DNA of 64,000 bases from Crateriforma conspicua. GTDB lineage: Bacteria; Planctomycetota; Planctomycetia; Pirellulales; Pirellulaceae. How positions within the stretch are numbered: the stretch's first letter is position 1; every line of letters begins with the position of its first letter. The stretch covers positions 6,428,501 through 6,492,500 of the forward strand of contig NZ_CP036319.1 in assembly GCF_007752935.1 (NCBI RefSeq). The letters run 5' to 3'. Positions 30,286 to 57,478 of the stretch are shown one piece after another. A program made the position numbers and the translations under genes. The notes beneath the pieces are model-generated. The model made no database searches. It saw only the letters and a list, made by a program, of their open reading frames with translations, and was not told where the DNA came from.

Positions 30286-30313
30286 CCCATGGGCCGCGAT
30301 GTGGGTCAGTTCG
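30278..30313. terminator. Shared hairpin carrying both stop codons of convergent genes
   Basis: CGAACTGACCCA (30278-30289) and TGGGTCAGTTCG (30302-30313) are a perfect 12-bp inverted repeat with a 12-nt loop. The left arm contains the TGA of the pyrophosphatase gene (30283-30285); the right arm contains the TGA of the TolC-like gene on the other strand (30306-30308). There is no T-run, so termination activity is inferred from position. Confidence 0.6.
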
Positions 30314-32177
30314 CGGCGATCATCACATGGGTATCCTGCAGCAACGTGCCTGATTCGAATTGCACGTTCTTTGCCGCGATCGTGTACTCAGCCATGGACT
30401 GATAGTAACGTGTTTGCGATTCGCTTAATCGGCGTTGTGCATCCAACAGTTGCTCCAAACTGATCGGCAGTCCCGCTTCGCGATTGGCTTCCAGTGCGTC
30501 CAAAGCATCCTTGGCAGCCAAGTAACGGTTCAGGTTGGTTTCCGTTTGCACAAACGCGCGATCAGCCTCGGCGACACAGGCCACCAGATCGTGCAGCACC
30601 TGACGTTCCTGTTCCTTCAACAACGCTCGTTCGCGTGCGATGTTCAGCTTTGCATTGCGGACCGCAGCGTGGGCTTGGCGGAATCCCACCGGCATGCGGA
30701 ATTCCACGCCGGCTTCATACTCCTGATAGTCCATCGATCCAAATTCTTCGAACGCTGAATTGTCGCCAGCAAGTTGCTGTCCAAGACCTCGCAGGCGGTA
30801 GATGGTCACCAAATCCAGTTCGGGCAACAGGAAATTCTTCGCCGCCAACAACTCCATTTGTCGTCTGGCGACCAACAGACGCTGCTGTTGCAGTTCGGAC
30901 CGCAACCGAATCGCTTCCGCCGTCAGGGATTCGACATCGAAGATGATCGGTGCCGTCAAAGGGTCGTCCACGCAACGCAACAATTCTTCGTCGCCGATGG
31001 AAAGTCCGATCAGCAACCGAAGCCGTCGTTCGGCGGCCAACACACCGCCAATCCCGGCGAATGTCCCACCGCTGGTGGAATTATTGACTTGGGTCCGTTG
31101 AATCAGCTTTCCTGCAATCGCATCCTGATATTCGCTCAGGAATCGATAGTACTGTTCTCGGGCAAGTGCTTCGGCAGACCCACCGCGTCGGTTGGATGCC
31201 TTTTGCGCTTCATAGCTTCGCCACGTTTGCCGGCTGCGTTCCAGCGCGGCCCGTTTGGCATCCACGTCACGATAGGCAAACGCCAGATCCCAATAGGCGT
31301 TGATCACATTGCTGACGTAATCGCGTGCATCTTGGCGAAACTTCGCGGTGCTGATGTCGTTGTCCGCCTTGGCGATCAGAACGCCGTTGTACACGCCGGG
31401 AAGGGCCGCCGGTCCTGCGATCCGGTTGAAGGCCACGCCGGCACCCTGCAGCAGCGGTTGACGAAGCTCGGCATGCCACTGGGTCTGCCAGGCACTGGGC
31501 GTCAGGTTGCCCGTGGCATTGTTGGCGTCGTAGTCGGTGACGCTTCGCAAAGCAACTTCGGCACCGGTTGCCCCGCGTTTGGAAAGCTGAAAGACATAGT
31601 CGTGGGTGTCTTGCTTGAACGCATTGGCTCCCCCGCCGAAAAATCGGTTATTGAACCGTCGATCGTTGTTTTGCCATTTGCCAAACGCGTACAACTGGGC
31701 ATCAAAGGCGCTAAGGGCGGCTTCGATACTTTGCTGCGGATCAGTTTGCACCAACTGAAGCGTCTGATCGGACGCCAACTGCTCAGGCGCCCGTAGCACC
31801 GTGGCGTTCAGGTCACGCAGCACCTGCGTGTTGGTCATCGCGATTTGGATCACTTCCAACAAGGTCACATCGCGATAGGACGCCGATTCAAAAGCCTCCG
31901 GGTCCCGCAGCGTCATCGGCATCGGAGGTGGTTCGGGGTAGACCTCCGGCGGCGCACCGGCGTCGACGTCGCACATGATCGCATCCACGCACCGGGTGTC
32001 GTTGCCGATCGTTTCCGGAACACTGCGATAGGCCCGACAGCCCACGCCCGCGGTGATGACAGCGGCAACCACCAGCCACGCAATCCCCGGCCAGCCGGTG
32101 ACGACGAATCGGCGCTGTTGAAACCCCGCGGAAATGCCCCGGGATCGACGGTCGGATCGGACGATGAATCGCGTCAT
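30306..32177 (-). CDS. TolC-like outer-membrane efflux lipoprotein (module A)
   Basis: The protein has 623 residues from ATG 32177; an ATG at 32222 or 32258 would extend the N-terminus. A hydrophobic stretch (residues 31-46) ends in AGVGC with Cys47 as probable lipidation site. The rest shows two long helical repeats typical of outer-membrane efflux proteins: AELRQPLLQGAGVAFNRIAGP, TAKFRQDARDYVSNVINAYWDLAFAYRD, and later GVEFRMPVGFRQAHAAVRNAKL and QLLDAQRRLSESQTRYYQSMAEY. It probably forms a trimeric channel through the outer membrane. It is divergent from the module A adaptor genes with about 170 bp between, so a shared control region is likely. Confidence 0.88.
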   Translation of the reverse strand: MTRFIVRSDRRSRGISAGFQQRRFVVTGWPGIAWLVVAAVITAGVGCRAYRSVPETIGNDTRCVDAIMCDVDAGAPPEVYPEPPPMPMTLRDPEAFESASYRDVTLLEVIQIAMTNTQVLRDLNATVLRAPEQLASDQTLQLVQTDPQQSIEAALSAFDAQLYAFGKWQNNDRRFNNRFFGGGANAFKQDTHDYVFQLSKRGATGAEVALRSVTDYDANNATGNLTPSAWQTQWHAELRQPLLQGAGVAFNRIAGPAALPGVYNGVLIAKADNDISTAKFRQDARDYVSNVINAYWDLAFAYRDVDAKRAALERSRQTWRSYEAQKASNRRGGSAEALAREQYYRFLSEYQDAIAGKLIQRTQVNNSTSGGTFAGIGGVLAAERRLRLLIGLSIGDEELLRCVDDPLTAPIIFDVESLTAEAIRLRSELQQQRLLVARRQMELLAAKNFLLPELDLVTIYRLRGLGQQLAGDNSAFEEFGSMDYQEYEAGVEFRMPVGFRQAHAAVRNAKLNIARERALLKEQERQVLHDLVACVAEADRAFVQTETNLNRYLAAKDALDALEANREAGLPISLEQLLDAQRRLSESQTRYYQSMAEYTIAAKNVQFESGTLLQDTHVMIAAN

Positions 32178-32348
32178 GGTCTTTTGAATCGGACGCCGGC
32201 CAGGCCGGCTGATACGCATCATCGTTATTGTTCGTCCGACCGGTACGACCGTATCCAATCATTCCGTCACGAAACGCGCACGTGAAACGGATGTCGGCTG
32301 TTTCACGATTCACTGCGACTGGATTTCAAAGGCTGTTGGTTAGACTGG

Positions 32349-33734
32349 ATGTCGACCATGGCTCCGCAAAACGTCTCCCATACCGCCGGTCGCGACGCCG
32401 CCACGTCTCGCGACACTGCTACCTGGACCAATGTCGCCGCCAACGCGATCGACCAGCTGGACGTTGCTGCGCAGACCGCCACCAAGCTTCAACCATTCTT
32501 GGACAACGCACTCGGTGTTGTCGTCCAGACCGTCGGCGCGACCCGATGCACCTTGTCGCTGCTGGAACAAGGTGTCCCCCGCGTGCTGGCCAGTCGCCTC
32601 GCGTCCGATCCGTCACCGTCCGAAACTCCCGCGACGACCACCACCACGGCACGAATCCGACGGGCGGACGTTTCCCCAGATACCGCCTTGGAACTGATGG
32701 CACAATGGCCACAGGGGCACCGCTTCGCCGCAGCGTCGCAATCGACCATGACGGACGTTGATCAGCAGCAACCGGTCGACGAGTTTCTCACGTCAGTACT
32801 GCAACTGTGTCAAACCGTCTTTCTGAAAGACCAGTACGCGCGATACCGGACCTTCACGCCCACCGCATCTCCGGACGAATCATCGACCTCATCCGGCCGA
32901 AAACAAAAGATCCGGCTCGCCACCGTTTTGATCATCGCCTTGGGATTGATCGGCATCGTTCCGGTACCGTTCCACTTACCCGTTGACGGCGTGATTCGGG
33001 CCAAAAATCAGTTTGGTATCTATGCCCCGGTGTCTGGCAGGATCGCCGAGGTTGCGGTCACCGACGGCCAGAACGTCAAAGAAGGCCAAGTTTTGCTGGT
33101 GTTGGAAAATGCCGATCTGCAACTGCGCCGCAGCAACGTGATCGGTGAATTGGCAACCGCGGAAGCCGAGCTGACCAGTTTGCGGGCCGGATCCTCAAAG
33201 GCCTCCGGCGAATCCGATCCCAACCAAGGCCTTCGGCAATCGGTGCTGCGCACAAAAATCGATGCGCTGCGAAAGCAGGTCGAACTGGCCAATCAAATTC
33301 ACGAGACCTTGACGCTGCGTGCACCCATCACAGGACGCGTGAACAGCGATTCGACATGGAATCATCGTACCGGCCAGAACATCGCAGCGGGCCAGTGGTT
33401 CATGGACATCGTGTCCGATGACGAAGGTTACGTTGCGGTCATGTCGTTGCCCGAACGTCAGTTTGGATACCTCGGCGATGAAAGGATCCCCTGCGACTTT
33501 CGATTACGGTCCGCCCCCGAATCCAACCTATCGGGAACCGTGCAAACGGTCGCCGATACGGTGTCCCTTCGCCCCGACGGAACATCAGTCGTTGAGATGA
33601 CGATACCGGTGGATTCGAATAACGGCCTGCGAAACGGGGCCGAAATCGTTGGTCACATCACTCCGGGGCGGCGTCCGCTTGGATTTGTCCTTTTCCGGCC
33701 CATCATCGAAGCTTTCAGGAACCAGCGATGGTGA
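32349..33734 (+). CDS. Module A membrane-fusion protein with cytosolic N-terminal GAF-like region
   Basis: The 461-residue protein has three visible parts. Residues 1 to about 185 form a soluble region resembling a degenerate GAF sensor (FLDNALGVVVQTVGATRCTLSLLEQGVPRVLAS). One TM helix lies at about 186-206 (ATVLIIALGLIGIVPVPF). A HlyD-type barrel-sandwich and hairpin follow (VDGVIRAKNQFGIYAPVSGRIAEVAV, LTLRAPITGRVNS). The adaptor part would sit in the periplasm and the GAF-like part in the cytosol. It is the smaller counterpart of the module B protein at 55430-57478. The next gene overlaps its end by 7 bp. Confidence 0.8.
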   Translation: MSTMAPQNVSHTAGRDAATSRDTATWTNVAANAIDQLDVAAQTATKLQPFLDNALGVVVQTVGATRCTLSLLEQGVPRVLASRLASDPSPSETPATTTTTARIRRADVSPDTALELMAQWPQGHRFAAASQSTMTDVDQQQPVDEFLTSVLQLCQTVFLKDQYARYRTFTPTASPDESSTSSGRKQKIRLATVLIIALGLIGIVPVPFHLPVDGVIRAKNQFGIYAPVSGRIAEVAVTDGQNVKEGQVLLVLENADLQLRRSNVIGELATAEAELTSLRAGSSKASGESDPNQGLRQSVLRTKIDALRKQVELANQIHETLTLRAPITGRVNSDSTWNHRTGQNIAAGQWFMDIVSDDEGYVAVMSLPERQFGYLGDERIPCDFRLRSAPESNLSGTVQTVADTVSLRPDGTSVVEMTIPVDSNNGLRNGAEIVGHITPGRRPLGFVLFRPIIEAFRNQRW

Positions 33735-34819
33735 AGCGACTTTCGATCGTTACGTTGGGTATGTCCGCAGCCTGCGTTGTGCTGTCCCGCCCCTGTCTTG
33801 CCGAAGACGCACACCACCGTATCGGCGGTTTGGTCGTCGTCGCAGTGGATTCAGCAGCGGTGTCTTCATCGATCGAGGGGCGCGTGGAATCCGTTCAAGC
33901 CGTCGAAGGCGATGACGTTTCGCAGGATCAATGCGTCATTTCGCTGAACAGCTTCGAAGCCGATCTGCGTCATCGATTGGCGAAAAGTAACGTTCAAATT
34001 GCTGTTGAACGGTCGTCGAAGAATCGCCAAACCGCGGCCGCCGAAATCGCATTACGCGAAGCCAAGCAGTTATTGGATGAATTCCTTTCGACCCAAGAAA
34101 TCAATCAACGCAAAGCCGAAAACGATCTGTCGATCCGAGCCGCCGAAAAAGCAGAATCGGTCGCACAAAACGAACTCGAACGCGCCCGAAAGGCACGCGA
34201 GAACTTCTCCGCTTCGATATCTGAATCCGAGATTGATGCGTTGGAGTTGGCCTATCAAAACCGCCAATTGGAAACTCGACAAGCCCGATTTGAACACAGT
34301 CTGGCACAACTGGACGTTGCCGCAGGAAAACGTCGAATCGACACGCTGCAAACCCGCATCGATGCGGCAGAACAAGCACGCATCGAATCCGCATCGCTGG
34401 ATCAAATTCTGCGCTGGCAGGCCGAAATCGAACAGCATCAAGAAAAATTGGCATCGCTGCATCTGAATCAACACCGGCTGACATCTCCCATCACCGGCAC
34501 CTTGGTATCGGTAGCGGTCCATCCCGGTGATTGGATCGAGCAGGGGCAAACCGTGGCACGTGTCGTGAATTTGCAGCGTTTGCGGGCGGAAGGATTTATC
34601 CCTTTTGCAGATGTCGAATCACTTCGCCGAACTTCCAATCTGAACATCAAGATTCAAGTGGCAGGCGGCGAAACCGTCACCGTAAAACCAACACGCCAGT
34701 TCATTAGTCCGGAAATCGATCCGATCACCCAGGAAACACGTGTCTGGTTTGAATTCCCGAATCCGGAACGCAGGATCAAACCAGGCCTTTCGGCGATTCT
34801 GACGATGGGTGCGCCGTGA
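33728..34819 (+). CDS. Module A HlyD-family periplasmic adaptor
   Basis: The 363-residue exported protein begins with a signal peptide (MVKRLSIVTLGMSAACVVLSRPCLA-ED). The biotinyl-lipoyl-like half motif is SSSIEGRVESVQAVEGDDVSQDQ. A long helical hairpin (residues 80-230) rich in Glu, Gln and Lys follows, then LTSPITGTLVSVAVHPGDWIEQGQTVA and a beta-barrel. It resembles adaptors of tripartite efflux systems and the module B gene at 54391-55356. Its gene overlaps both neighbours, which supports one transcript with the M50 protein. It probably bridges inner and outer membrane partners. Confidence 0.85.
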   Translation: MVKRLSIVTLGMSAACVVLSRPCLAEDAHHRIGGLVVVAVDSAAVSSSIEGRVESVQAVEGDDVSQDQCVISLNSFEADLRHRLAKSNVQIAVERSSKNRQTAAAEIALREAKQLLDEFLSTQEINQRKAENDLSIRAAEKAESVAQNELERARKARENFSASISESEIDALELAYQNRQLETRQARFEHSLAQLDVAAGKRRIDTLQTRIDAAEQARIESASLDQILRWQAEIEQHQEKLASLHLNQHRLTSPITGTLVSVAVHPGDWIEQGQTVARVVNLQRLRAEGFIPFADVESLRRTSNLNIKIQVAGGETVTVKPTRQFISPEIDPITQETRVWFEFPNPERRIKPGLSAILTMGAP

Positions 34820-37026
34820 AAGTCCGTTCAATCTCTGCTAGGGCAACACAACTCTCCGGTGCATCCTTTCGTCTGAACCGAAAATTAGTTCATCGAAAGA
34901 TTCGATTCGGTCGGAAAACGACTTGGGTGGTCAAGCGAATCGCCGACGAGGCTTTTTTTTACTTTGATGAAGCGGAACACTGGATCCTTCAACAACTGAC
35001 AAGTCCACTGACCATCGGCCAATTGATGGACCGCTGTCGCAACAACATGCGGGACCAAGCTCCGTCACCTGGCGCACTTTCCGAGTTCGTCCGAATGCTG
35101 GCCGGCAACCATCTGTTGTTGGTCGGAAACGAAAGACCAATCGCAGACGATGTCGCATCGCCAAGTCGTCGTCATGATTACTCGCTTCATCCATTGGCGC
35201 TGCGTTTGCCTGGAATCGACGCCAGCCAATTTTTCGACTGGGCCGCCACATGCACGCGATTCATCCCCCGTTCCTTGGCCTTCGGCATCTACCTGACACT
35301 CTTGGCCATCGCAGGCGGTGTGGCATGGACCGACTTTCCCGCCCTGGTTACAGACATCCGCGGCGCAGCACAGCGCATGCCCACGCAGTGGGTTTGGTTC
35401 ATCATGGCCCTCGCGTTGGCAAAAGTGTGTCATGAAATTGCACACGCATCGGCTTGTCATTTGGCCGGCGGGCGATGTCGAAACGTCGGCGTCATGTTTC
35501 TGTTCGGTGTCCCCTGTTTGTACTGCGATGTCAGCGATGCTTGGCTAATGCCACAGCGATGGCATCGTGTTCTGGTGTCTGCCGCGGGCATGATGGCCGA
35601 ATGGTTCATCGCCGCCATCTGTGTGTTGATATGGTGGACCAGCCAACCGGGAATTCTTCACGACACCGCGTCATTGTTGATCATGGTTTGCACGGCCAGC
35701 ACGCTGGTTTTCAACGGCAATCCGCTGATGCGTTATGACGGGTATTTCATTTTGTCAGACCTTTGGGGAAAGCCAAACTTGGCTCAGCGATCAACGACCG
35801 CACTGCGTGAATTCGCATACCACCTATTTCACGGCAGTCGTGATGCATCGCTCGCTTGCGAACACGACGACGACGACACCAGCGTTGCCCTATTGGTCTA
35901 TGGACTTGCCAGCGTTTTGTACCGTGCGTTGGTCCTATCGTTCATCAGCTTGGTTGCGATGCGTTGGGTCAGCGGCACACCTTGGTTTTGGCCGGTAACA
36001 TTGCTGATCATCGCGACCGTTGTACGCGTGTTTTTCGCCAGGATCGGTAAACAAGACGATGCCGATACCGCACCAAATCGTTCATCGCATGCCGATCCCG
36101 AACAAACGCGACGCCCCATGATGGTCGGCGCCGCAATCGTGGCCCTGTCACTTGTGGTGCTGGTCGTTCCGTTGCCACGCACACTATCGGTCGACGGTGT
36201 CGTGCTTCCGGACAAGCACCAGGAGATCCGGCTGTCCGGATCAGGCCGGATCATTGATGCGGTCCGGCCCGGCATTGTGCTGGAACAAGATCAAACCATT
36301 CTGCAAGCTGACGATTGGGTCAATCGCTGGGAACTGCTGCGCTGCGACGCTGCCACGGATTCGATTCGGAATCATATCAACGCGATCCGGTTGATGCGAA
36401 CGCAGAATCCGGTCCTTTCACAACAGCTTCCGGCGTTGACTGAACAACTGCACGCGTCCATCACGCAATCGCAGACCCTGCAATCGCAATTGAAACTGAT
36501 GCATCTTCGGGCCGAAGCCGGCCAGATGGTTTTTGACACACAGAAAGTGATGCCTTCGCGGGATCAAAAACAACGACGTTGGATCGGGTCACCGTTTGCA
36601 TCCGAAAATCGTGGATGCGTTGTCCCTGCCGGGCAGAGTCTTGGCTTGGTGGGAGATGCAAACAAACGTATTGTCCAATTGGCACTTCCACAGGAACAGT
36701 TGGACCTGGTCCGTATCGGCCAGCACGTCAGAATTCCGCTATCAGGGCGAAGCGATCCTGCTGAGGGAACGATTCGTTCGATCGCACAAATGCCAAGTAC
36801 CGGTTCCGGGATGTCGCTTCGATCGGCGATCGATTCATTCAATGTCGATTTGCCGGCGGCTCAAGCACGGGCAGCAAACTCTTACCAGGTCAACGTAGAA
36901 CTGGATGCATCGATCTTCCATCGGCCGTTGCCGGTTCACCTGTCCGTGGTTGGCCGAATCGAATTACCCAAAGCCGCGATCTATCAACGTGTGTGGCGAT
37001 TCTTGATCGAAAACTTTTCGTATTGA
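34816..37026 (+). CDS. Module A PqqD-like / M50 peptidase / HlyD fusion membrane protein
   Basis: The 736-residue protein starts with GTG overlapping the previous stop by 4 bp. Residues 35-105 resemble a PqqD-like winged-helix domain (FYFDEAEHWILQQL, GALSEFVRMLAGNHLLLV). The M50 core has LAKVCHEIAHASACH, with HEIAH at 206-210, PCLYCDVSDAWLMP, and NGNPLMRYDGYFILSDL carrying the conserved Asp. Several TM helices surround these. A further TM at about 435-455 precedes a periplasmic HlyD-like arm (SVDGVVLPDKHQEIRLSGSGRIIDAV). All M50 catalytic residues appear intact, so intramembrane or juxtamembrane proteolysis is possible. The paralogue at 52070-54307 has the same order. Confidence 0.85.
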   Translation: MKVRSISARATQLSGASFRLNRKLVHRKIRFGRKTTWVVKRIADEAFFYFDEAEHWILQQLTSPLTIGQLMDRCRNNMRDQAPSPGALSEFVRMLAGNHLLLVGNERPIADDVASPSRRHDYSLHPLALRLPGIDASQFFDWAATCTRFIPRSLAFGIYLTLLAIAGGVAWTDFPALVTDIRGAAQRMPTQWVWFIMALALAKVCHEIAHASACHLAGGRCRNVGVMFLFGVPCLYCDVSDAWLMPQRWHRVLVSAAGMMAEWFIAAICVLIWWTSQPGILHDTASLLIMVCTASTLVFNGNPLMRYDGYFILSDLWGKPNLAQRSTTALREFAYHLFHGSRDASLACEHDDDDTSVALLVYGLASVLYRALVLSFISLVAMRWVSGTPWFWPVTLLIIATVVRVFFARIGKQDDADTAPNRSSHADPEQTRRPMMVGAAIVALSLVVLVVPLPRTLSVDGVVLPDKHQEIRLSGSGRIIDAVRPGIVLEQDQTILQADDWVNRWELLRCDAATDSIRNHINAIRLMRTQNPVLSQQLPALTEQLHASITQSQTLQSQLKLMHLRAEAGQMVFDTQKVMPSRDQKQRRWIGSPFASENRGCVVPAGQSLGLVGDANKRIVQLALPQEQLDLVRIGQHVRIPLSGRSDPAEGTIRSIAQMPSTGSGMSLRSAIDSFNVDLPAAQARAANSYQVNVELDASIFHRPLPVHLSVVGRIELPKAAIYQRVWRFLIENFSY

Positions 37027-37065: not shown

Positions 37066-40000
37066 TTAAGGATTCATGGACCAAACCGAAATCCGTCCTT
37101 CGCGATCCGCGGTCAAAACGTGTTTCTGATCTGGCGAAATGTCGACATCAGTCAACGGTTGGTTGTGCCGGCGAATCTCGATCAACTCACGCCCCTCGGT
37201 GGACGTCTGGTCCTTGGCGACGGCATCCAACATCGGGTCCCAAATCCGTAATGATTCATCATCACTGACCGACAACAGACGTAAATTGGCGTCTTCGTTG
37301 CCGTGAAAAACGACGCCTTCGACAGATTCGGCGTGCCCACGAAACACAATGGGCACACGCCACTGGACGTCATTGATGCCTGGAATCGGCCACATTCGCA
37401 CCAACCGGTCGGCTCCTCCGCAAGCGACCCAACGCCCGTCGGCCGAGAACCGACCACACAAAACGGCGCCCGCTTGTGGTATGTCCATCAACACGTCCGT
37501 CTTCTTCGCAACGATGTCATGGACCACCACTTCGCCGCGATCCGTTGTGACCAACAAACGGCGACCATCGACCGAGAAAGTTAACGACAGGGGGCGGCCC
37601 AACGTTACCGACCATTGCCCCGCATCAATCAATTCCAAAGTCTCATCGCTTTCACGATACTTCCACTGACGCACCCGACCGTCATCACCACCGGTCACCA
37701 GAACGTCTGGTGACGATGCGGGTCCGAACTGTAGACAGCGAACGGCACCCTCGTGCGGCGATTCCAACTTTGCCACCGCGCGGCCCGTTTCCACATCCCA
37801 GATTTTCACGCTGCGACTTGCGGTCGCCACACGAGTGGAATCGGCGGAAAAAGCGACGTCGGTGATGGCACCGTGCGAACGGTAACTGCGCATATGCTGA
37901 TATGTGGTGCAGTCCCACAGAAACGCCGCGCTTCCGTGCAGCGTTAGAAGCTGATTGGGCGATATCGGCAAGACGGCCCCCGGATCGGGCAATCGCATGG
38001 GCAACTCGAATCGTCCACGACGCTGGGCAAACGTCGCGTTGTCCACCAACGACTTGTCGTCATCGATGCGTGCTGTCTGCACATGCCACAGGTCAATCTG
38101 CGAAGGCTCATCGCCGCGGGGCGTGAACAATACCGCCAACCGACCGTCCGAATCGTCAAAGCAGGCATCGACAATTCCTGGTCGTCCACCGTTGACCGAT
38201 TTTGCATCTCGCGGTATTTCCAATCGCGTCAGCATCTGTGACGCTCCGGTGACCGAATCCACAAGCACTGCTTGATGCACGACGGAATCGACCTTGGCCA
38301 ATTCCGTCACCACCGCCAAGAATCGTTTATCCGGTGATAACGACAATCCCACCGCGGCACCGTCTTGAGCGTAGGTCTGCACCACTTGCCGGCTTTCCAA
38401 ATCCCAGCGACTGACGACGCCATCATCGGTTGCGATCCAGGCCGATGATCCGTTGACTGCAAACGCGATGGCGTGAATCCGAAGCCCCAAACGATCGTCC
38501 CAAGGTTCACCGATTGGTTTTCCGGATTCGCAATCCCACTGAATTAGCCGACCCGCGCGATCGCCGGTCAATAAGGTTTTGCCATCATCCGATATCGCTA
38601 CCGCCGAAACGGATTCTTGGTGCCCGCCCAATCGGTGCATCACGCGAGGATAACTGCTCTGCCCCGGCGGTATTTCCCAAATCAGCGCACGATCATTCTT
38701 GGAACTGGACGCGGTCACCATTCGACGTCCGTCACGGGAAACAGCGACCACATTTCCGATGCCCGTTCCCGACGCGGTGGTCAGTTCTGTTCCCTTTTTC
38801 AAATCCCACAACCGAACCATCGCATCGGCGGCACCGACAACCAACCGCCCATACCGACGATCCAATGCCATGGCCATCGCACGAAAATCCGTACCTTCGT
38901 CAAGCCGAAGTGTCGCCGCCAGCGCGGCGTCATCCGATTCTGAAGCGGTTCCCATCGTACGATCGTCGGTGACCCAAAGATCGTTTTGCTGATCGTAAGA
39001 AAGCAACCTTGCGGTACGATCACGCCCCGCTGTCACAATCCGATCCGAAGCCGGAGAAAACCGTGCCGCCCAGATGGCATCGTCCTGCACCTGGATCAAA
39101 CCGGATGATCCGGTTTGATTTTCTGATTCACCATCAGCATTACTTGGCTTCTTTGATACCTGACTGACCAAAGTCCTAAACGCACGGTATGACCGCACGG
39201 ATGCTTGATCGTCATCCGAATCAGGCATGGGTTCCACGTCGGGCTTTCGCAGATCCCAGAGCCGAACCGTCATGTCCTTGGATGCAGAAATCACCATTCC
39301 CTGCCCCTCGTCCCAGTATTCCGCCGCAACCACCGCACCGCCATGGCCACGGAACGACCGCTGAAACTGTCCGACGGGTGGTTGATCGACGCCGGATGCC
39401 TGGACCCGCCAAAGCTTGATCAAATAGTCATCACCGCTGGTCACCAAATGCTGACCGTCGTCGGAAAAAGAAACCGACAAGACTTTGGAGTCATGTGCCG
39501 CGTCTTGCGCGCGGTCTTCGCGACCGGAACCAACGTCGGGATCGACCAAACGAGCCGACGGCACAACGGACTTGGAACTTGACTGTTTGGGCACCGAAGC
39601 CATGTCCCCCGCATTGCCTGCGGTCTCTGGTGCAAGCCCCTGCACGGCCCGTTGGATTTCAGAAACGAGGTCCGATTGCGCAACGGCTTTCGGGTCCCAA
39701 AGAAACACGACACCTGACTGGTCGCCAGACGCCACCAAAGATCCGTCACGCGTCAGGCAAACGTCCGTCACGGGTGATTCATGCTGATCATATACCCCCA
39801 CACGATCGAACGAGGTTCCATCATTATCAATCGACCACAATACGATTCGTCCCATCGTCTGATCGGCGATGGCGGCGGCAACCAAAACATCGGATTCCCG
39901 CGCCACGGCATCAAACGCCACGACCGGCGCCAAGTGCCATAGGACCGACGTTTGATCTTCGGACGAACCGGATCGCACGCGAATCGTTCGGTCAGTCCCC

Positions 40001-43000: not shown

Positions 43001-43212
43001 GCGCGTTCGCCGGGCTTCGCACTGCCAGATCCCGTCGCTGCAACATCCGGTGTGGGAACGTCTTGGTCATCAGGACCGCAATGGCCATCGCCGTCCGGTT
43101 GGTTCAGATCAACGGTTTCATCCAATGACTCCGGACGTCGACTGGGATCATCGTCTTGTCGACCCGGTTCCCTATGCGGATCGTTCGGTGATCGTTGACC
43201 GTCGCGAGACAT
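37066..43212 (-). CDS. Giant Ser/Thr protein kinase with DETVD repeats, coiled coil and WD40 propellers
   Basis: The protein has 2048 residues. Residues 1-330 are acidic with about ten copies of a DETVDL-like motif. The kinase domain is at about 370-640 with GKGGMGNVF (P-loop), AVKVI (Lys), HRDIKPENIML (catalytic loop), DWG in place of DFG and GTPSFMAPE, as usual in planctomycete kinases. A TM helix at about 750-772 is followed by a coiled coil of Ala/Glu/Arg repeats to about 900, then WD40 repeats to the end, for example DGKTLLTGDRAGRLIQWD and FSADSTRVATASRSVKIWD. The topology predicts a cytosolic kinase and a periplasmic or external WD40 sensor. It lies between module A and the giant surface protein, so it may signal about this system. 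Confidence 0.92.
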   Translation of the reverse strand: MSRDGQRSPNDPHREPGRQDDDPSRRPESLDETVDLNQPDGDGHCGPDDQDVPTPDVAATGSGSAKPGERATGDSSANDLDRTAKLDETVDLDATTRLDETVGIDPDADAESSSKEDDLDATKQIDETVDFTPAKLSVPMEALDETTDLSATRRIDETVDVVPAATDSTDESDPNATKRLDETVDLDATTRIDETVDLDATKRLDETAGSETVMASGLVDPSDENRTVDLSSDATAELDAPDSKGDPHSGTVDFELGVDDSRSDQSTMEFQDPDDVHTMDVALDSLVVDPADDADGQPSVLEDDNLGQTISPRQLSDEEQDFWGQISAEFVADDAPTKMKPAIDRSISEQKLALHKRHMVTPMQNDDQLSDYRLIRLLGKGGMGNVFVARQGSLDRLIAVKVIRPLDKAKRSKLRKQGKLQHVEESRRQQFLSEAVVTGDLDHPNIVPIHDVAVTGDNTVFYAMKRVVGTPWSDVIAEKTLDENLEILLRTSDAIGFAHTRGVVHRDIKPENIMLGDFGVVLVMDWGLALAKPEFEKLDSITPSHGLGGTPSFMAPELAVGPVDRIGPAADIYLLGATLFMIITGNPPHNAANVSLCLRAVASNEIRPFDDRYRGELMDIALKAMATNPADRYPDVPSFQDAIRQYRDHAESITLAKRAKDDLQRAGQTEDYSSFARAEFGFEEALVLWEGNRQAKLGLSQARVEHAEAAYRNRDFDLGLSLLSENDPDHVDLIKRLKDGIRERELNASRLTLLKKAAAAMLAFILVGGAAAIYFIDQQRGLAEHNANLARENEELARANAEEARSNAQVAETKRVEAEAARQEAIEAREQAEKAKDKEAIARGDAETARDEALKAKQNEEEQKKIAVEEKNKAVVARNEAVKARRETELARRLVEQEYYRSQIGLAKARVDQNEFDEARRIVDELIEKRRREGKTGELPIELQWLSDVTQQAAETVQLESPAKDLSMSKNAGDFAVALADGRVVTLNRQGQRLRMQPAFATSQGDVASDVAIAADGNRLLVGTELGTVDLMDRSQERPISSGSMLSHNGRVTESMLLSFPDRRDDWILSAGTDRTIRVRSGSSEDQTSVLWHLAPVVAFDAVARESDVLVAAAIADQTMGRIVLWSIDNDGTSFDRVGVYDQHESPVTDVCLTRDGSLVASGDQSGVVFLWDPKAVAQSDLVSEIQRAVQGLAPETAGNAGDMASVPKQSSSKSVVPSARLVDPDVGSGREDRAQDAAHDSKVLSVSFSDDGQHLVTSGDDYLIKLWRVQASGVDQPPVGQFQRSFRGHGGAVVAAEYWDEGQGMVISASKDMTVRLWDLRKPDVEPMPDSDDDQASVRSYRAFRTLVSQVSKKPSNADGESENQTGSSGLIQVQDDAIWAARFSPASDRIVTAGRDRTARLLSYDQQNDLWVTDDRTMGTASESDDAALAATLRLDEGTDFRAMAMALDRRYGRLVVGAADAMVRLWDLKKGTELTTASGTGIGNVVAVSRDGRRMVTASSSKNDRALIWEIPPGQSSYPRVMHRLGGHQESVSAVAISDDGKTLLTGDRAGRLIQWDCESGKPIGEPWDDRLGLRIHAIAFAVNGSSAWIATDDGVVSRWDLESRQVVQTYAQDGAAVGLSLSPDKRFLAVVTELAKVDSVVHQAVLVDSVTGASQMLTRLEIPRDAKSVNGGRPGIVDACFDDSDGRLAVLFTPRGDEPSQIDLWHVQTARIDDDKSLVDNATFAQRRGRFELPMRLPDPGAVLPISPNQLLTLHGSAAFLWDCTTYQHMRSYRSHGAITDVAFSADSTRVATASRSVKIWDVETGRAVAKLESPHEGAVRCLQFGPASSPDVLVTGGDDGRVRQWKYRESDETLELIDAGQWSVTLGRPLSLTFSVDGRRLLVTTDRGEVVVHDIVAKKTDVLMDIPQAGAVLCGRFSADGRWVACGGADRLVRMWPIPGINDVQWRVPIVFRGHAESVEGVVFHGNEDANLRLLSVSDDESLRIWDPMLDAVAKDQTSTEGRELIEIRRHNQPLTDVDISPDQKHVLTADREGRISVWSMNP

Positions 43213-49588: not shown

Positions 49589-51391
49589 ATGCCAGATGAT
49601 CCACAAACTTCGGCAGTGCCCGTTGATACGGCTTCGCAACCGCCCGTCCACAGCCTGCGTTGGTGGCCCGCTGCGGCGCTGCTGTTGCTGATGGCGGCCC
49701 TGCGATATGGCCTTGGTTCCACGGAATCGCCCAGCCTGTCGATGATGATGCTGGCATTCATGGGACCGGCGGCGGTCTGTCTGTTGATTCTGCTTTGGTG
49801 GTGTTTTGGAAGTGCCGCCACCATACGTGAAAAAGCCATCGGGCTGATCGGGCTTGTCGTCATCGCTGTCATTTCGGTCGCGCTCATGCACCCATCTTTG
49901 CAAGGCATGGCGACCGTCATCATGGTCATCCCCACGGCCATCGCCCTATTTGCGGTCGCACTGATCCTGTTTTCACGGCAACCGAAATGGCGTCTACCGG
50001 TCGCGTTGGTTGCCGCCACGATCGGCTTTGGATTTTGGAACCTGAAGCAAAGCGAAGGCGTCACCGGTCAGTTCGAATCCCAGCTGTTGTGGCGATGGCA
50101 GCCCACCGCTGAACAATCCTATTTAAAGGAACTTGCGTCTCGCGAGACCACCGAACCTGTCGATGCCGGCGACATGATCGCGCTGGCCGATGCACAGTGG
50201 CCGGCCTTCCGGGGGGCCGATCGTAACGGCGTGGTCCGCGGCGCGGCGCTGATGGAAGACTGGGACACGACGCCGCCGAAGCTGGTTTGGAAACACCGAA
50301 TTGGTCCGGCGTGGTCGTCCTTCGCTGTTGCCGGAAATCGCATCTACACCCAAGAGCAACGTGGCGACGAAGAAGCCGTGCTGTGCCTGGACGCCGACAC
50401 GGGCCGGTCGATTTGGACCCACGCGTATCCCAGCCGATTCTGGGAAGCCATCGGCGGTGCGGGCCCACGCGCCACCCCAACGTACGCCGACGAAGGATTG
50501 TTCGCGTTGGGTGCCGATGGGATCTTGATGGCACTGGATCCCACCGACGGTACCCTGCGATGGGAAAGAGACCTCAAGGACGATGCCAGACGCGATCCGC
50601 CACAATGGGGATTTTCGTCTTCACCTTTGGTCGTCGACGGCAAGGTCATCGTGCATGCCGGCGGTGAAGATGATTTGGGGCTGCTGGCCTATGAAGCCAT
50701 TGACGGAAGCATCGCTTGGTCCGTCCCTTCGGGTGACCACAGCTACAGTTCGGCACAATTGGCCGAGTTCTTTGGGACCGCGGGCATCTTGATGATGACC
50801 AACCAAGCCCTGCAGTTCGTTAGCATTGCCGACGGTTCGACCATCTGGCAGCACGATTGGCCCGTGGAAAACTATCGTGCCATCCAGCCGTTGGTTGTTT
50901 CCGATACGGTGCTGATTGGGACCAGCCTGGGCGAAGGCACGCGTAAGATCCAAGTCCTTCGGAACGAATCCGACAACCAATGGTCCACCGTTGAACGCTG
51001 GACATCACTGGACTTGAAACCTGATTACAACGATTACGTGGTGGCCGATGGATTCCTGTATGGTTTCGACCGAAACATCTTTGCCTGCATCGATCTGAAA
51101 TCGGGCCAACGTCAATGGAAACGCGGACGATACGGTAACGGCCAAGTTCTCCTGCTGGCCGACGCCGACCAACTATTGGTTTCATCCGAAAAAGGCGAAG
51201 TCGTCCTGCTGCGGGCCAATCCCGAGCAGCTACAGGAAACCACACGCTTTCAAGCCCTGGATGGCAAAACGTGGAATCATCCGGTACTGGTGGGCGACCG
51301 GCTTTACATCCGTAACGCTCAAGAGGCCGCCTGTTATCAAATGCCGCTGAAGAAAAACGAAACGCCGGAACAAGACTTGGCGGCAAAGTAG
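49589..51391 (+). CDS. Membrane protein with PQQ-like beta-propeller domain
   Basis: The 600-residue protein has an N-terminal region with about four TM segments (residues 27-150; ALLLLMAALRYGLG, VIMVIPTAIALFAVALILF). A linker and a large beta-propeller of PQQ-like repeats follow. WPAFRGADRNGVVRG is the typical planctomycete start. Repeats include VLCLDADTGRSIWTHAYP, LMALDPTDGTLRWERDL and FACIDLKSGQRQWKR. It lacks the residues of true quinoprotein dehydrogenases that I can recognise, so it may be a scaffold like BamB rather than an enzyme. The propeller would be periplasmic. It converges with the DUF3467 gene through a terminator. Confidence 0.85.
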   Translation: MPDDPQTSAVPVDTASQPPVHSLRWWPAAALLLLMAALRYGLGSTESPSLSMMMLAFMGPAAVCLLILLWWCFGSAATIREKAIGLIGLVVIAVISVALMHPSLQGMATVIMVIPTAIALFAVALILFSRQPKWRLPVALVAATIGFGFWNLKQSEGVTGQFESQLLWRWQPTAEQSYLKELASRETTEPVDAGDMIALADAQWPAFRGADRNGVVRGAALMEDWDTTPPKLVWKHRIGPAWSSFAVAGNRIYTQEQRGDEEAVLCLDADTGRSIWTHAYPSRFWEAIGGAGPRATPTYADEGLFALGADGILMALDPTDGTLRWERDLKDDARRDPPQWGFSSSPLVVDGKVIVHAGGEDDLGLLAYEAIDGSIAWSVPSGDHSYSSAQLAEFFGTAGILMMTNQALQFVSIADGSTIWQHDWPVENYRAIQPLVVSDTVLIGTSLGEGTRKIQVLRNESDNQWSTVERWTSLDLKPDYNDYVVADGFLYGFDRNIFACIDLKSGQRQWKRGRYGNGQVLLLADADQLLVSSEKGEVVLLRANPEQLQETTRFQALDGKTWNHPVLVGDRLYIRNAQEAACYQMPLKKNETPEQDLAAK

Positions 51392-52069: not shown

Positions 52070-54307
52070 CTAAAATTCAAAGTTGAACGTCTTGGCAATG
52101 ATCCGCCACAAGCGTTGCCCCAAGGACATTGGATCCACATGAATCTTGGCCGATCCGCGATAGCCCGCTCTCAGCACGGTCTCATCAAAATCAATCGGGA
52201 CTCGTCCTTGGAATGAAACACTGCGTGGTTTGATCTGGCCTGTCCGCGGGTCAATTTCGGTTTGCAAATCGCCCCCGGTTTGGCTGGACATATTCGTCGA
52301 AGCTGCTTGCATCGGATTGATCGACATCTCGGTCAATTTCCCATGAAAGGTCTCCAATCGCTTGGAATCCAATTTCAAATCAACCTCCTGGCCGACACGA
52401 ACCAGCTGCATGTCGCCCTGGTCGATGATCAGCACCGCCTCATAATCTTTAGGGGTGCCGATCTCGCAAATCTTATCATCCGGCGTCATCAAAGCCCCGA
52501 TGTTATGCGGCTGCATCGGAGTCCCCGTCCAACCAGGCAAGCGTCCGTCGCCGGCATCTTGTGATGGCTTGTCGGCCGGCGGCAGAACTTGGCCGTCACG
52601 AACCGCACGAACGGTCAACCGCTTGACTTCTTCTTCGGTTTTTTCACGCAGCGCGACGATCGACGCCAGGACCTCATCTTGATAATCCTGCTGCACTTTG
52701 ACCGATTCATCGGTTCGTGCACGACGCGTCAGGTTCGCACGCTGGACTCGTGCAAGTTCTTCTTGGCCCTGAAGATCCGCCAAACGAATGATCAGGTCGG
52801 GATTCTCCAGTTTGGCAACCGGATCTCCCTTGGAAACGATGTCTCCCGGCTGTGCAGTCCAACGGACACGTCCCGTTGTGGCAGCATAGACCGAACCGGC
52901 TTCGCTGGGTCGGATCTCAAAAGCACAATCGATATGGTGCGGCAGCGGAATGTACGCCACCGCCGCCAGGATCGCTCCCGCGATGCCCAGCGTTGCAAAC
53001 AGTCGGCCCTTCTTCACTTTTGCCAACCTCCCAGGCGTACGAACAAATTTCCAAGTTTGAATAATGGGCTGCATCACAAGGCCGGCAAATCCGGCCACCG
53101 CCAACAATCGGCCGACCGCCTGAAGCCCATAAGGTTCCAACACCTTCATCACGAACCAGACGATCGAAAACACAACCACCCATCGATAAATCACACTCGC
53201 GATGGTGAACATCGCAAAGGCAAGTCGATTTCGCTGGGGCAAGAAAGGATCTTCCTGCAGTTCCAACCCCAAGCAGGTTTCTTGAAACCATCGCTTGAGA
53301 ACTTCCGTGGCCTTCTGACGAAGGTTGGGAATTTCCAACAAATCCATCAAAATGTAATAGCCGTCGAACCGCAGCAACGGGTTCCCGTTGACCAGAATCG
53401 TGCTAACAGCATTCAGGAACATGATATTCAGCGACAAATCATTGACGGTCGTTCCGGGTTCGCTGAAGAACCAGACAAATGCTGCAATCGATGCCAGGAT
53501 CATTTCCACATAAATCCCGGCCGCACCGATCCAAACACGCTGCCATTTATTGGGCAACATCCATGAATCGGAAACATTGCAATACAGACATGGCGTGAAC
53601 ACCAACAGCATGAAACCGATTTCGTGGCATTCACCACCGAATTTCTTACAACTCAGCCCGTGACCGAATTCGTGAATGACTTTCACGACTCCCATCGTTG
53701 CCGCAAGAATCAGCCACCGGTCGGCTGCAAAAAATTGCTGGAATGTGGGCAACTTGGCATAAACGGTTTCATACTGAGTCGCCAACAACAACGACGCGGT
53801 AAGAAACAAACCGATAAAGAACAACAGTGCCGGGACTGTGAACATCCACCCGAACCACGGCAACAGCCGGTTCAAGATTTTTTCGGGGTCGATACCACGG
53901 GTACGAATCGCAAAGATGTTGGAAAACTTGCCCAACAGTTCCTTGTTACGCTTCTTCCGACCACGTTCGCGAAGCTGTTTTCCCTGCCCTGGCGAATTGC
54001 TGATCACCAGCCCACTGCGGTGCAGCATTCCGATGAACTGTTGCAGATCCCCAAAGGTGATCTTCTGCGGTGCGAATCGAGCCTCAAATCCGTCTTTGAT
54101 TTGTTGCAGGCTGACGTGACCGTCCAGCATGTTCAGAATGAAATATTCTTCATCATGAAAGCGGAAGTACTGCAGCCCGATTGGTTCTTTGACCACCCAA
54201 TAGGCCGCACCCTGATAATGGTGCCGACTGCCCGTCAGGTCCGGCCGTTTGCGCACCGTCAGCGGCCGCGATGAGCTGCTTACCAGGGATTCGGCCAAAG
54301 TGGTCAT
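52070..54307 (-). CDS. Module B PqqD-like / M50 peptidase / HlyD fusion membrane protein
   Basis: The 745-residue protein has the same plan as 34816-37026. Residues 45-105 are PqqD-like (FRFHDEEYFILNMLDGHVSLQQI, GMLHRSGLVI). The M50 core has VIHEFGHGLSCKKFGGECHEIGFML with HEFGH at 212-216, PCLYCNVSDSWMLPNKW, and NGNPLLRFDGYYILMDLLEIPN. TM helices surround this. A last TM near 460 leads to a HlyD-like arm (AFEIRPSEAGSVYAATTGRVRWTAQPGDIVSKGDPVAKLEN) with coiled coil and a barrel domain. Catalytic residues are intact. It is better preserved in size than the module A copy. It follows the HlyD adaptor gene by 83 bp in the same operon. Confidence 0.88.
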   Translation of the reverse strand: MTTLAESLVSSSSRPLTVRKRPDLTGSRHHYQGAAYWVVKEPIGLQYFRFHDEEYFILNMLDGHVSLQQIKDGFEARFAPQKITFGDLQQFIGMLHRSGLVISNSPGQGKQLRERGRKKRNKELLGKFSNIFAIRTRGIDPEKILNRLLPWFGWMFTVPALLFFIGLFLTASLLLATQYETVYAKLPTFQQFFAADRWLILAATMGVVKVIHEFGHGLSCKKFGGECHEIGFMLLVFTPCLYCNVSDSWMLPNKWQRVWIGAAGIYVEMILASIAAFVWFFSEPGTTVNDLSLNIMFLNAVSTILVNGNPLLRFDGYYILMDLLEIPNLRQKATEVLKRWFQETCLGLELQEDPFLPQRNRLAFAMFTIASVIYRWVVVFSIVWFVMKVLEPYGLQAVGRLLAVAGFAGLVMQPIIQTWKFVRTPGRLAKVKKGRLFATLGIAGAILAAVAYIPLPHHIDCAFEIRPSEAGSVYAATTGRVRWTAQPGDIVSKGDPVAKLENPDLIIRLADLQGQEELARVQRANLTRRARTDESVKVQQDYQDEVLASIVALREKTEEEVKRLTVRAVRDGQVLPPADKPSQDAGDGRLPGWTGTPMQPHNIGALMTPDDKICEIGTPKDYEAVLIIDQGDMQLVRVGQEVDLKLDSKRLETFHGKLTEMSINPMQAASTNMSSQTGGDLQTEIDPRTGQIKPRSVSFQGRVPIDFDETVLRAGYRGSAKIHVDPMSLGQRLWRIIAKTFNFEF

Positions 54308-54390: not shown

Positions 54391-55356
54391 TCACTTGATG
54401 ACGATGTCGGCCGACATTCCAGGCCGGATGATCCAGCGTCCATCGACTTGCTGGTTTTTGATCACGGCCCAAGCGCGATAGCTTTCCAAACTGTTGATTC
54501 CGGGGCTGACAAAGCCCAACTGGGCGTTGATGCGGATCGGTTCGCCGTCTTTGCCGTCGGCGTAAACCCAGACTTCGCATGGGGCACCGGCATAAACGCG
54601 GTCGCCCGTTCCGATGGCGGGCAAATCGGCTTCGACTTTCAATTCATCCATCTGCAACAGGCTGGCGATCGGGCTGCCCGGTTGGACCCATTCGCCCTGT
54701 TGTGCGTCGCGTTCTTCGATCTCGATCACGCCGTCAAAGGGGGCCTTGATCTGTCGCCGATCCAATTCGTGTTCGGCCATCGCCAATTCCACACTGCGGG
54801 CGATGAATTTGATTTGGTTGCCCTTGGTTTCGATGTCCGCAAGTTCGATCTGTAGACCGGCCTTTTCGACTTCGAGTTCCTTCTTTTCTTTTTCAAGACG
54901 GCTGGCAACGTTTTTTCGGAACAGTTCACGAAGCGCTTCGGCTTCCTTTTCGGCAAGCTTGCGACTGCTGACTGCGAAACGTCGGTTGATGTCGTTTTCG
55001 GCGTTCAGCTTGGCTTCCAGCTTTTCAGCTTTCTTTAACTCCACGGCCAAGCGTGCGGAATGGTCATCGATCACACCGATGATCTCGCCGGCCTTCACCG
55101 TGCTGCCCTCTTCGATATTCAGCTGGGTCAGTTTGCCTTCCACTTCGGCCGGGATCTTGATGTTACGACGAAACTTGACGAAGCCGTTTTCCGAACGCAG
55201 TTGGCCGTCGGCCATGGACCGCTGGCCGCCAAGCCCGGCATAGGGAGTGGCCAGGCTGCCACGTTCCTGGCCGCTGGCATCGCTGCTGACGACCAACAGG
55301 CATGCCATCATGGCCGGCAACAAGAACAGCAACGATGCTTTGGGTTGGTTGGTCAT
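54391..55356 (-). CDS. Module B HlyD-family periplasmic adaptor
   Basis: The 321-residue exported protein starts at an ATG giving a signal peptide (MTNQPKASLLFLLPAMMACLLVVSSDASG). GFVKFRRNIKIPAEVEGKLTQLNIEEGSTVKAGEIIGVI is the first lipoyl half motif. A long Lys/Glu-rich hairpin (about residues 85-185) follows, then IKAPFDGVIEIEERDAQQGEWVQPGSPIA (second half) and a beta-barrel. It is homologous in layout to 33728-34819. It probably links the M50/HlyD protein to an outer-membrane partner. No TolC-like gene lies in module B, so the partner may be the one at 30306-32177 or elsewhere. Confidence 0.88.
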   Translation of the reverse strand: MTNQPKASLLFLLPAMMACLLVVSSDASGQERGSLATPYAGLGGQRSMADGQLRSENGFVKFRRNIKIPAEVEGKLTQLNIEEGSTVKAGEIIGVIDDHSARLAVELKKAEKLEAKLNAENDINRRFAVSSRKLAEKEAEALRELFRKNVASRLEKEKKELEVEKAGLQIELADIETKGNQIKFIARSVELAMAEHELDRRQIKAPFDGVIEIEERDAQQGEWVQPGSPIASLLQMDELKVEADLPAIGTGDRVYAGAPCEVWVYADGKDGEPIRINAQLGFVSPGINSLESYRAWAVIKNQQVDGRWIIRPGMSADIVIK

Positions 55357-55429
55357 ATCGCTGGTAAAGATAAGGGCGGCGTGGATGAAGGTAGGGGGTG
55401 GAGGCGTGACTGGTGATCGACAGCGTTGA

Positions 55430-57478
55430 CTAGAAGAAGAACTTGCAAGCCCACTCGTAGACTTCGTGCAGCAAGACGAACCCGGAGGCGCGCCGGCCGC
55501 ACTTCACGTCGGCGGTGAAGCGTGTGCCAGGGCTGGGATCAAGCTTTTTCAGATCGTCCTGGTCGGGCGTTGCTTTCATCTTGATGATCGCGCCGTGTTC
55601 TTCATCGGCTTCGGCACGCAACGCGATCTGGCGAGTCGGCAGGACCGCATGAAGTGTTTCGTCAGGATCGGACGCCAGGATGTATTCGACATCCAATTGA
55701 TCCAAACTGTTTTCGCGAATGAAATTGTCCAAATGCCCCTCACGTTTCTCGGGCATCTTCAATTCCAAATACATCGGCTGTGTCAGGTCGGCGACCTCCA
55801 TCAAGACCTGCCCGGTGGTCACGGGACGAGCCCGCAACATTTTTTCGACTTCCCATGAAACCACGGTGCCGTCGATCGGCGATTTGACGTCCAAATCGGC
55901 TTCGCGTTCTTGTTTCAGTTCCAGTTTCTTTTTCAAGATCTCCAGCTTCGTTCCCAACTCGTAGGTCTGGGCTTCCAAAGCGACCGCTTCGCTGCGTTCC
56001 ATGTTGCGACGATCCTTCAACTGCATCCGCAGACGATCGAATTCCGCATAGGTCGTTTGGATTTGCCCCTGAAGATCGGCGATTTCGATGTCCAGATCGG
56101 GATTACGTAAACGCAGCAGCACCTGGCCGGCTTTGATCTCATCGTTCTCCTTGACCAGAACATCGATGACTTCACCGTCGATGTTGGCAAAGACTTCGCG
56201 CCGGACTTCCGGCAACAGCGTGCCTTCGGCTTCCAAGTCAAAGTCCAGGGGCACAAAAATGCCTGCCAGAATCAAGCCGATCACGCCGGCCACCACGGCC
56301 AAGGTCTTGGGCAGCGTCCGAGCCTTCAAAACCCAAGTCGCACGACCCAGAGCCCGCCAAACCGGCATCAGGAAAAGGTTGCTGTGTGATAGCGAGTTGG
56401 CGATCGCTCGAGTGCCGTGTTCGTAAACCAAGTCACAGCGGGCGCGGAACACTTCGGGCGGCAGTTCGCTTTCGATCTGCTCGACGATCAGCGCGCCGAT
56501 GACTTCGCCGCGGTGCGCGTTGTCGCGGTCCAAGGCGCCGGTGGCCGCGTTTTCTTCGCTGCTGATGTCGCGTTGCGGTTCACGCAACGGCAACACGGCG
56601 ATGTTTCGGCCGTAGGACTGATCGACGTATTCCTCCAACGCGTCTTCGATTTGTGGCGGCAAGTCTTCGGTCTTGCCGTCGTGCCACAACGGTTCGCCGG
56701 CGGCGACAACGCGGGTGGCCAAATTGTTCAGGGCGGCAACGATGTTGGATCGGTTTTCGAACGTGTCTTGACCGCTGATCGCTTCGACCTTGCACTTGCG
56801 CCCCGACTTGATCGCCACACTGACGCGGTCACAACCGATCAACCGCCGTCCTTCGTTGGCAACGATGTTCGCGGTTTCTTTAAGGTCCAATGACTCGTGG
56901 GCCGCGCGGGCGAACGAGTCCGATTGCTGCCACAGTGTTTGGCGATCGCCCAACGTTCGCAGTTTCTGGCTTCGCAACCATTCGGCGGCCAACTGACACA
57001 TCTGCTGCATGAACCGCAGATAGCCGCGTTGGGTGTCCGGGGCGGTGTCGGGACGCTGGAAGACTTCGATCACGCCGTCCTTGTGGCCGTCATGCTCGAG
57101 GGCCCCCAGGACCAACAGGTATCGCGTCGGGTTGCCTTCGCTTTCGCCGTCGGTGGTTCCAGAGTACGGGGGAACCAGCAACGACTGGCCCGCGTTGGCC
57201 ACGCGGGTGATCAACCGATTGTGCCGGGATGCATCTTCGCTGTCGTTGGACAGCACCGATGGCTCGGCGTTGATTTGGTACTGCAGTTTCAGTTGGCGGT
57301 CTTCATCCAGCAGCCAGATCGCGCCGCCGGCGGCCGCCAGGGCCGTGATGATCCGGGTCAAAAGCTCCGGATAGAACTCTTCCGCCGTTGCCCCACTTTT
57401 GGACAACGTCGCAATTTCGTTCACCAAAGCCCGAATCTGTGCCTTGGTTTCTTCGACCGATTGCTGATTGACCGCCAT
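55430..57478 (-). CDS. Module B membrane-fusion protein with GAF-like cytosolic sensor region
   Basis: The protein has 682 residues from ATG 57478; further upstream codons contain the promoter and were rejected. Residues 1-385 hold GAF-like domains (LLTRIITALAAAGGAIWLLDEDRQLKLQYQINAEP; IVANEGRRLIGCDRVSVAIKSGRKCKVEAISGQDTF; IGALIVEQIESELPPE). One TM lies near 390-412 (VVAGVIGLILAGIFVPLDF). A HlyD-type adaptor follows (EAEGTLLPEVRREVFANIDGEVIDVLVKENDEI, coiled coil, DVKSPIDGTVVSWEVEKMLRARPVTTGQVL). A cytosolic ligand-binding part joined to a periplasmic adaptor is unusual and suggests gating by a small molecule. It is the first gene of the module B operon. Confidence 0.88.
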   Translation of the reverse strand: MAVNQQSVEETKAQIRALVNEIATLSKSGATAEEFYPELLTRIITALAAAGGAIWLLDEDRQLKLQYQINAEPSVLSNDSEDASRHNRLITRVANAGQSLLVPPYSGTTDGESEGNPTRYLLVLGALEHDGHKDGVIEVFQRPDTAPDTQRGYLRFMQQMCQLAAEWLRSQKLRTLGDRQTLWQQSDSFARAAHESLDLKETANIVANEGRRLIGCDRVSVAIKSGRKCKVEAISGQDTFENRSNIVAALNNLATRVVAAGEPLWHDGKTEDLPPQIEDALEEYVDQSYGRNIAVLPLREPQRDISSEENAATGALDRDNAHRGEVIGALIVEQIESELPPEVFRARCDLVYEHGTRAIANSLSHSNLFLMPVWRALGRATWVLKARTLPKTLAVVAGVIGLILAGIFVPLDFDLEAEGTLLPEVRREVFANIDGEVIDVLVKENDEIKAGQVLLRLRNPDLDIEIADLQGQIQTTYAEFDRLRMQLKDRRNMERSEAVALEAQTYELGTKLEILKKKLELKQEREADLDVKSPIDGTVVSWEVEKMLRARPVTTGQVLMEVADLTQPMYLELKMPEKREGHLDNFIRENSLDQLDVEYILASDPDETLHAVLPTRQIALRAEADEEHGAIIKMKATPDQDDLKKLDPSPGTRFTADVKCGRRASGFVLLHEVYEWACKFFF

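Follow-up and report, generated by a model that had tools for sequence, protein, structure and literature searches.

Two gene modules encoding HlyD-type adaptors together with a membrane-bound M50 protease lie in a 64,000-nucleotide stretch of the Crateriforma conspicua genome (NZ_CP036319.1, positions 6,428,501 to 6,492,500; hereafter the window), and raise the question of what they transport and by which motor. Genes for ATP-binding cassette (ABC) or resistance-nodulation-division (RND) transporters were absent from inside both modules, and neither type was a conserved neighbour among the loci compared. The preferred reading, with a probability of about 0.68, places modules A and B among six paralogues of a secretion apparatus that resembles type I but works without an ABC transporter, and that would serve giant surface proteins carrying an N-terminal LEPR tag. 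Across the family, the place of the usual ABC pump seems to be taken by a SecA-like motor together with a membrane protease. The first-pass annotation of the window had proposed two modules sharing one three-protein order (adaptor, HlyD adaptor, PqqD-like/M50/HlyD protein); this order and all the open reading frames (ORFs) were recovered, and module B extended further, to position 51483, by a DUF3467 gene.

The M50/HlyD core protein and its probable SecA-like partner

HlyD domains were matched in all six proteins of the two modules, including the arm described earlier on the M50 polypeptide itself. Both M50 proteins are polytopic membrane proteins with intact HExxH and N..P....DG motifs, the combination expected of site-2 proteases (M50), as the first-pass annotation had read them. 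Among M50/HlyD homologues, HExxH was kept in 145 of 145 and the motif aspartate in 145 of 145. The Peptidase_M50 profile scored 24.7 bits on the module A protein, slightly under the Pfam cut-off of 27.2. These results support an export machine in which the protease is conserved and probably active. The AlphaFold 2 model of the module B protein (pLDDT, the predicted local distance difference test, of 84) displayed about seven transmembrane helices and a C-terminus matching MacA/MexA folds, and the modelled N-terminal region of the M50/HlyD protein consisted of strands followed by helices. The PqqD-like N-terminus claimed for both proteins was a weak match that stayed under the cut-off in the window (PF05402, 15.2 bits in module B for a cut-off of 23.4); 9 of 38 homologues matched it with an E-value of at most 0.01.

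M50-HlyD homologues were present in all 40 genomes of the order compared (C. conspicua and 39 relatives), with 1 to about 8 copies per genome. The single 7.18 Mb contig of C. conspicua encoded six, modules A and B included. One further operon (L013) was ordered TolC, SecA-like, HlyD, HlyD and M50/HlyD, and another (L014) TolC, HlyD, HlyD and M50/HlyD. Synteny was also conserved in other phyla, far outside this genome, so that lack of synteny elsewhere, named by the first-pass annotation as a ground for dropping its proposal, does not apply. The machine family is widespread among bacteria, and its export role is predicted.

A SecA-like ATPase recurred as the putative energiser. Besides the housekeeping SecA, C. 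conspicua encoded two secondary SecA-like proteins, in which the DEAD, preprotein-binding and P-loop domains were present and the SecA_SW (wing/scaffold) and SEC-C domains of the housekeeping protein were missing. The best homologue of one of these secondary SecAs was located within a few kb of the module-B orthologue in 11 relatives (G002, G003, G004, G005, G008, G009, G015, G018, G020, G021 and G035). The C. conspicua counterpart (genome positions 3277215-3279467) was unlinked to module B, and is most likely its partner. In 80 non-planctomycete loci (Pseudomonadota, Desulfobacterota, Omnitrophota, Nitrospirota and Rokubacteria, several of them interrupted by contig ends), SecA-like genes were found in 61, GAF/HlyD-type genes in 55, HlyD genes in 44 and ABC-like genes in 4. 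Since a SecA-like gene accompanied so many loci and the 11 relatives, the earlier picture of a machine without energiser does not hold for the M50-HlyD family overall: the absence of ABC and RND pumps from both modules stood, but SecA-like partners were encoded elsewhere in the genome, and a machine pictured as driven by its protease kept its export role and conserved protease but gained a linked ATPase. Module A, like some subtypes, had no energiser nearby, and is a member of a SecA-less subtype. A SapC-family gene also recurred in SecA-type operons (12 of the 80 loci, e.g., L080 14215-15036 and L073 14214-15035).

LEPR-tagged giant proteins beside the M50/HlyD loci

A short motif near the N-terminus of giant proteins is captured by NCBIfam model NF012209 (LEPR-8K), which marked several large ORFs of C. 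conspicua. It was matched in 44 of 50 genomes with an M50 locus compared to 1 of 14 control genomes. A LEPR ORF lay at most 10 kb from the M50 gene in 36 of 50 genomes of other phyla, a count for which both had to fit on the same contig; when the genome labels were shuffled 5000 times, the count averaged 4.4 and never exceeded 14. On the same strand as the M50 gene, 24 of these ORFs lay upstream and 9 downstream, and three were on the opposite strand. In planctomycete genomes, 10 modules had a LEPR ORF within the same distance for 1.65 expected (Poisson p 9e-6, modules counted by hand). Co-occurrence pointed the same way in 187 gammaproteobacterial genomes, chosen regardless of either gene except for one ascertained genome: LEPR was found in 15 and M50-HlyD (E < 1e-60) in 26, and 13 genomes had the two together (Fisher p 2.6e-11; once the ascertained genome was removed, 1.6e-10). 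Among 193 alphaproteobacteria, both genomes with LEPR (2/2) carried the M50 gene, too few for a test of their own.

Individual operons displayed this arrangement. On alphaproteobacterial plasmids, giants of the LEPR-XLL or LamG kind (about 8,800-12,900 amino acids) adjoined HlyD-M50-SecA-HlyD, in some cases with TolC. Annotated LEPR-XLL giants of Pontibrevibacter and Pseudosulfitobacter (about 10,600 and 12,900 amino acids) were immediately upstream of HlyD-M50-SecA-HlyD, and in Methylosinus an 8,850-amino-acid giant with LEPRVLLNAD preceded DUF3467-HlyD-M50-SecA-HlyD-TolC. In C. conspicua, an 8497-amino-acid protein with ALEDRILLSGE, under the curated NF012209 cut-off, was encoded about 400 bp from the L014 TolC gene and divergently to it. 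The giants had no obvious hydrophobic signal peptide, as judged by eye rather than by a predictor. In Pseudooceanicola nanhaiensis (G041, the genome of L086), which carried two M50 modules, each of the two LEPR giants lay beside a module of its own, a pairing that suggests cargo-specific giant/module pairs.

Tagged giants also adjoined loci without SecA, so that it is the M50-HlyD protein which the tag family follows, a large subset of the loci having SecA as well. A closely similar M50/HlyD gene was found on Escherichia coli, Citrobacter and Hafnia plasmids and in Azospirillum. The E. coli and Azospirillum records read were ordered giant, TolC, HlyD, HlyD and M50/HlyD, with ALESRQLFDGA or ALEPRFMFDAAG at the N-terminus of the giant. 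One E. coli plasmid (L078, NZ_CP081687.1 44829-64580) combined the TolC-HlyD-HlyD-M50/HlyD operon with a 4459-amino-acid Ig-like protein tagged ALESRQLFDGA, and near-identical M50 genes occurred on several plasmids from E. coli, Citrobacter and Hafnia. Genome searches retrieved more SecA-less loci, with giants bearing LEPRYMFDAAG, LEPRMMFDAAG, LEARIAFDAAG, LEPRLLFDGAA, LEQRVVLDAAA or LENRIVLDAAA. In Pseudomonadota, the ending of the tag seems to differ between SecA-type and SecA-less subtypes. A strict pairing of tag variant and SecA was broken in planctomycetes, where LEVREVFDAAG and LEDREVLDAAG were located beside the SecA-type loci L037 and L041.

At the other end of the giants, those of L225/L226 (genome about 2605738-2631228, minus strand), L058 and L148 displayed a terminal hydrophobic helix and, beyond it, a tail of the type W-x-L-R-G-G ... 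P-x-W ... DPLP, possibly the C-terminal anchor of some giants. A conserved tail common to all giants was rejected, the transmembrane segment and tail being found in only three.

Composition of the two modules

The features of the window are listed in Table 1. The stop and start codons of the module A ORFs (32349-37026, plus strand) overlapped from gene to gene. GAF-HlyD proteins had been announced at the head of both modules; tandem GAF domains were detected in module B, and Pfam found no GAF domain in the first adaptor of module A (32349-33734). The true start of the module B GAF/HlyD gene, by comparison with relatives, was the ATG at 57478, the 772-amino-acid ORF being over-extended. The TolC-like gene assigned to module A was indeed an outer-membrane protein gene next to it, but divergent from it and outside its operon; homologues of this gene adjoined several other modules.

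Table 1. Genes of modules A and B and nearby features in the window
Feature	Positions	Strand	Matches and motifs
TolC-family outer-membrane protein	30306-32258	-	OEP (Pfam), E 1e-19
Module A adaptor 1, one transmembrane segment and HlyD-type arm	32349-33734	+	HlyD_3, E 8e-18
Module A periplasmic HlyD adaptor, signal-like N-terminal segment	33728-34819	+	HlyD_3, E 1e-15; HlyD_D23, E 1e-14
Module A PqqD-like/M50/HlyD membrane protein	34816-37026	+	HEIAH, NGNPLMRYDG; HlyD_3 (Pfam)
1435-amino-acid beta-rich protein, weak cargo candidate	43273-47580	-	Basic N-terminus, LERRLVLNA; pattern match only
Module B DUF3467 protein, 132 amino acids	51483-51881	-	PF11950, E 7e-25
Module B PqqD-like/M50/HlyD membrane protein	52070-54307	-	HEFGH, NGNPLLRFDG; Peptidase_M50, 31.2 bits (above Pfam cut-off); HlyD_3, E 5e-8
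Module B periplasmic HlyD adaptor	54391-55356	-	HlyD_3, E 3e-14
Module B tandem-GAF/transmembrane/HlyD protein	55430-57478	-	GAF, E 3e-6; GAF_3, E 3e-6; Biotin_lipoyl_2, E 6e-8

The DUF3467 gene was located directly downstream of M50 in the module-B orthologues of relatives and was likewise conserved in two alphaproteobacterial operons; of the 80 loci of other phyla, 14 had it. A role of DUF3467 as SecB-like chaperone was not supported (AlphaFold 2 pLDDT 63, a low-confidence fold, and no match in the PDB), and no functional work on DUF3467 or LEPR-XLL was found in the openly licensed literature. Next to module A (37066-43212, minus strand), a 2048-amino-acid fusion of a protein kinase with many WD40 repeats was encoded. 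Neither this gene nor a BamB-like gene (49589-51391) was recovered as a conserved module neighbour.

Alternatives, known systems and proposed mechanism

Several observations weigh against giants as the cargo. Gene proximity shows functional linkage, which falls short of demonstrating that the giant is cargo, and the sampled loci share phylogeny, the linkage and co-occurrence tests being uncorrected for common ancestry. LEPR fell under threshold in 6 of 50 genomes and in 6 of 40 planctomycete genomes, all of them M50-positive; some modules may therefore have other cargo or tags. Conversely, 2 of the 15 gammaproteobacterial LEPR genomes had no M50-HlyD match at E 1e-25. The giant-like ORF of the window fits the tag at pattern level: the 1435-amino-acid protein was absent from NF012209 matches at E up to 1, and a hidden Markov model of the motif was not significant on it, so that without a significant profile match it is a weak cargo candidate. 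Modules A and B belong to the LEPR-linked machine family, and their tie to this LERR protein is weak.

Three other explanations were weighed. ABC and RND pumps typically work with HlyD and TolC parts, and the adaptors could serve an ordinary exporter of this kind encoded elsewhere, with the M50 and SecA-like proteins as accessories; this was considered very unlikely, as no such pump was a conserved neighbour and SecA-like genes outnumbered ABC-like ones by 61 to 4 in the 80 loci. Slightly less remote, but still improbable, is a route resembling that of ribosomally synthesised and post-translationally modified peptides (RiPPs), in which the PqqD/M50 protein would act as in daptide or epipeptide systems and trim the leader from a small modified peptide, which the HlyD/TolC parts would export. 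PqqD domains generally bind RiPP leaders, and the PqqD-like plus M50 architecture is matched by the same model as the daptide and epipeptide proteases (NF041824, NF058609). The M50 parts scored 149.6 (module A) and 184.6 bits with NF041824 (daptide_HExxH), and 36-58 bits with YydH/LiaK, all far under the curated cut-offs (300 for NF041824). They differ from these proteases by their C-terminal HlyD arm, the operons inspected held no annotated modifying enzyme or small precursor, and the recurrent neighbour was the gene of a giant protein.

About as improbable as the peptide route is a sensing role, already raised by the first-pass annotation with the GAF domains as its sole basis. GAF/HlyD and M50 proteins would then form a regulated intramembrane proteolysis circuit reporting the state of the envelope or of adhesins, the HlyD parts being structural sensors rather than a duct. 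Regulators are classic substrates of M50 proteases, and many module copies have GAF domains. However, no regulator gene was found as a conserved module neighbour, no GAF domain was detectable in the first protein of module A, and the presence of genes for a SecA-like ATPase and for TolC agrees with transport.

Export of LEPR-tagged giants remains the preferred reading. The one element constant throughout is the M50 protein, with its PqqD-like N-terminal domain, transmembrane helices, MacA/MexA-like arm and HExxH, and from it we infer recognition, translocation, cleavage and export. The cargo would be giant surface proteins without obvious hydrophobic Sec signal, in whose N-terminal tag a basic stretch precedes LE-x-R-x-[LM]-[LF], with SAD or D[AG]A after it. 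Recognition of this tag may fall to the M50 protein through its cytosolic PqqD-like domain, to the SecA-like ATPase or to both. The ATPase would drive the chain across the membrane through a pore that the polytopic M50 protein probably forms or helps to form, translocation being otherwise energised where no SecA occurs, and the tag would be cut off at the M50 site. Three HlyD arms (of the M50 protein, the GAF/transmembrane protein and the free adaptor) could build a periplasmic duct docking on a TolC-type exit.

The locus type itself, presented as undescribed by the first-pass annotation, was reported in 2015. Kamneva, Poudel and Ward (2015, PMC4452313) described a secondary-SecA locus with M50/HlyD, HlyD, GAF/HlyD and sometimes OEP genes, whose partners can be unlinked; SecA was proposed as ATPase and M50 as possible pore, the biological role being stated as unknown. 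The modules share with it the secondary SecA without wing-scaffold (SecA_DEAD without SecA_SW, encoded in C. conspicua) and the adjacent M50/HlyD, HlyD and GAF/HlyD genes, all three in module B and without detected GAF in module A. Order-wide presence, up to about eight paralogues per genome, the SecA-less subtype and cargo candidates are added here. That text does not mention a specific substrate, LEPR, PqqD, DUF3467 or adhesins, and the substrate candidate, giants with N-terminal LEPR-XLL, appears to be the new element, judged against openly licensed literature (later work may exist).

Type I secretion (HlyB/HlyD/TolC) has in common with the modules the HlyD-type adaptors, the TolC-type exit (adjoining module A, and in L013 and L014) and the inferred one-step export of large repeat proteins. 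It differs by the ABC exporter in its operon and by a C-terminal signal instead of the N-terminal tag proposed here, and, of the three adaptor chains in the modules, one is joined to a protease. Accessory Sec systems (SecA2) of Gram-positive bacteria likewise dedicate a second SecA to surface proteins, whereas the secondary SecA described here is without SecA_SW and SEC-C and coupled to HlyD/TolC, and no SecY2 was seen in the operons read.

The balance of evidence leans modestly towards LEPR-XLL being the export tag of a distinct Gram-negative system, in which a SecA-family motor and a site-2-protease/adaptor fusion replace the ABC exporter. Its cargo, of up to about 14,000 amino acids, would rank with the largest bacterial proteins known, and the system would exist as a SecA type, whose tag in Pseudomonadota is mostly LEPRxLLSAD, and as a SecA-less type with the tag LExRxMFDAAG. 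The locus of 2015 had no known cargo and the LEPR-XLL giants had no known machinery in openly licensed literature; linked to each other, both become testable. If true, very large surface proteins would have an ABC-independent route across two membranes, and the extra SecA copies of Gram-negative genomes would be assigned a job.

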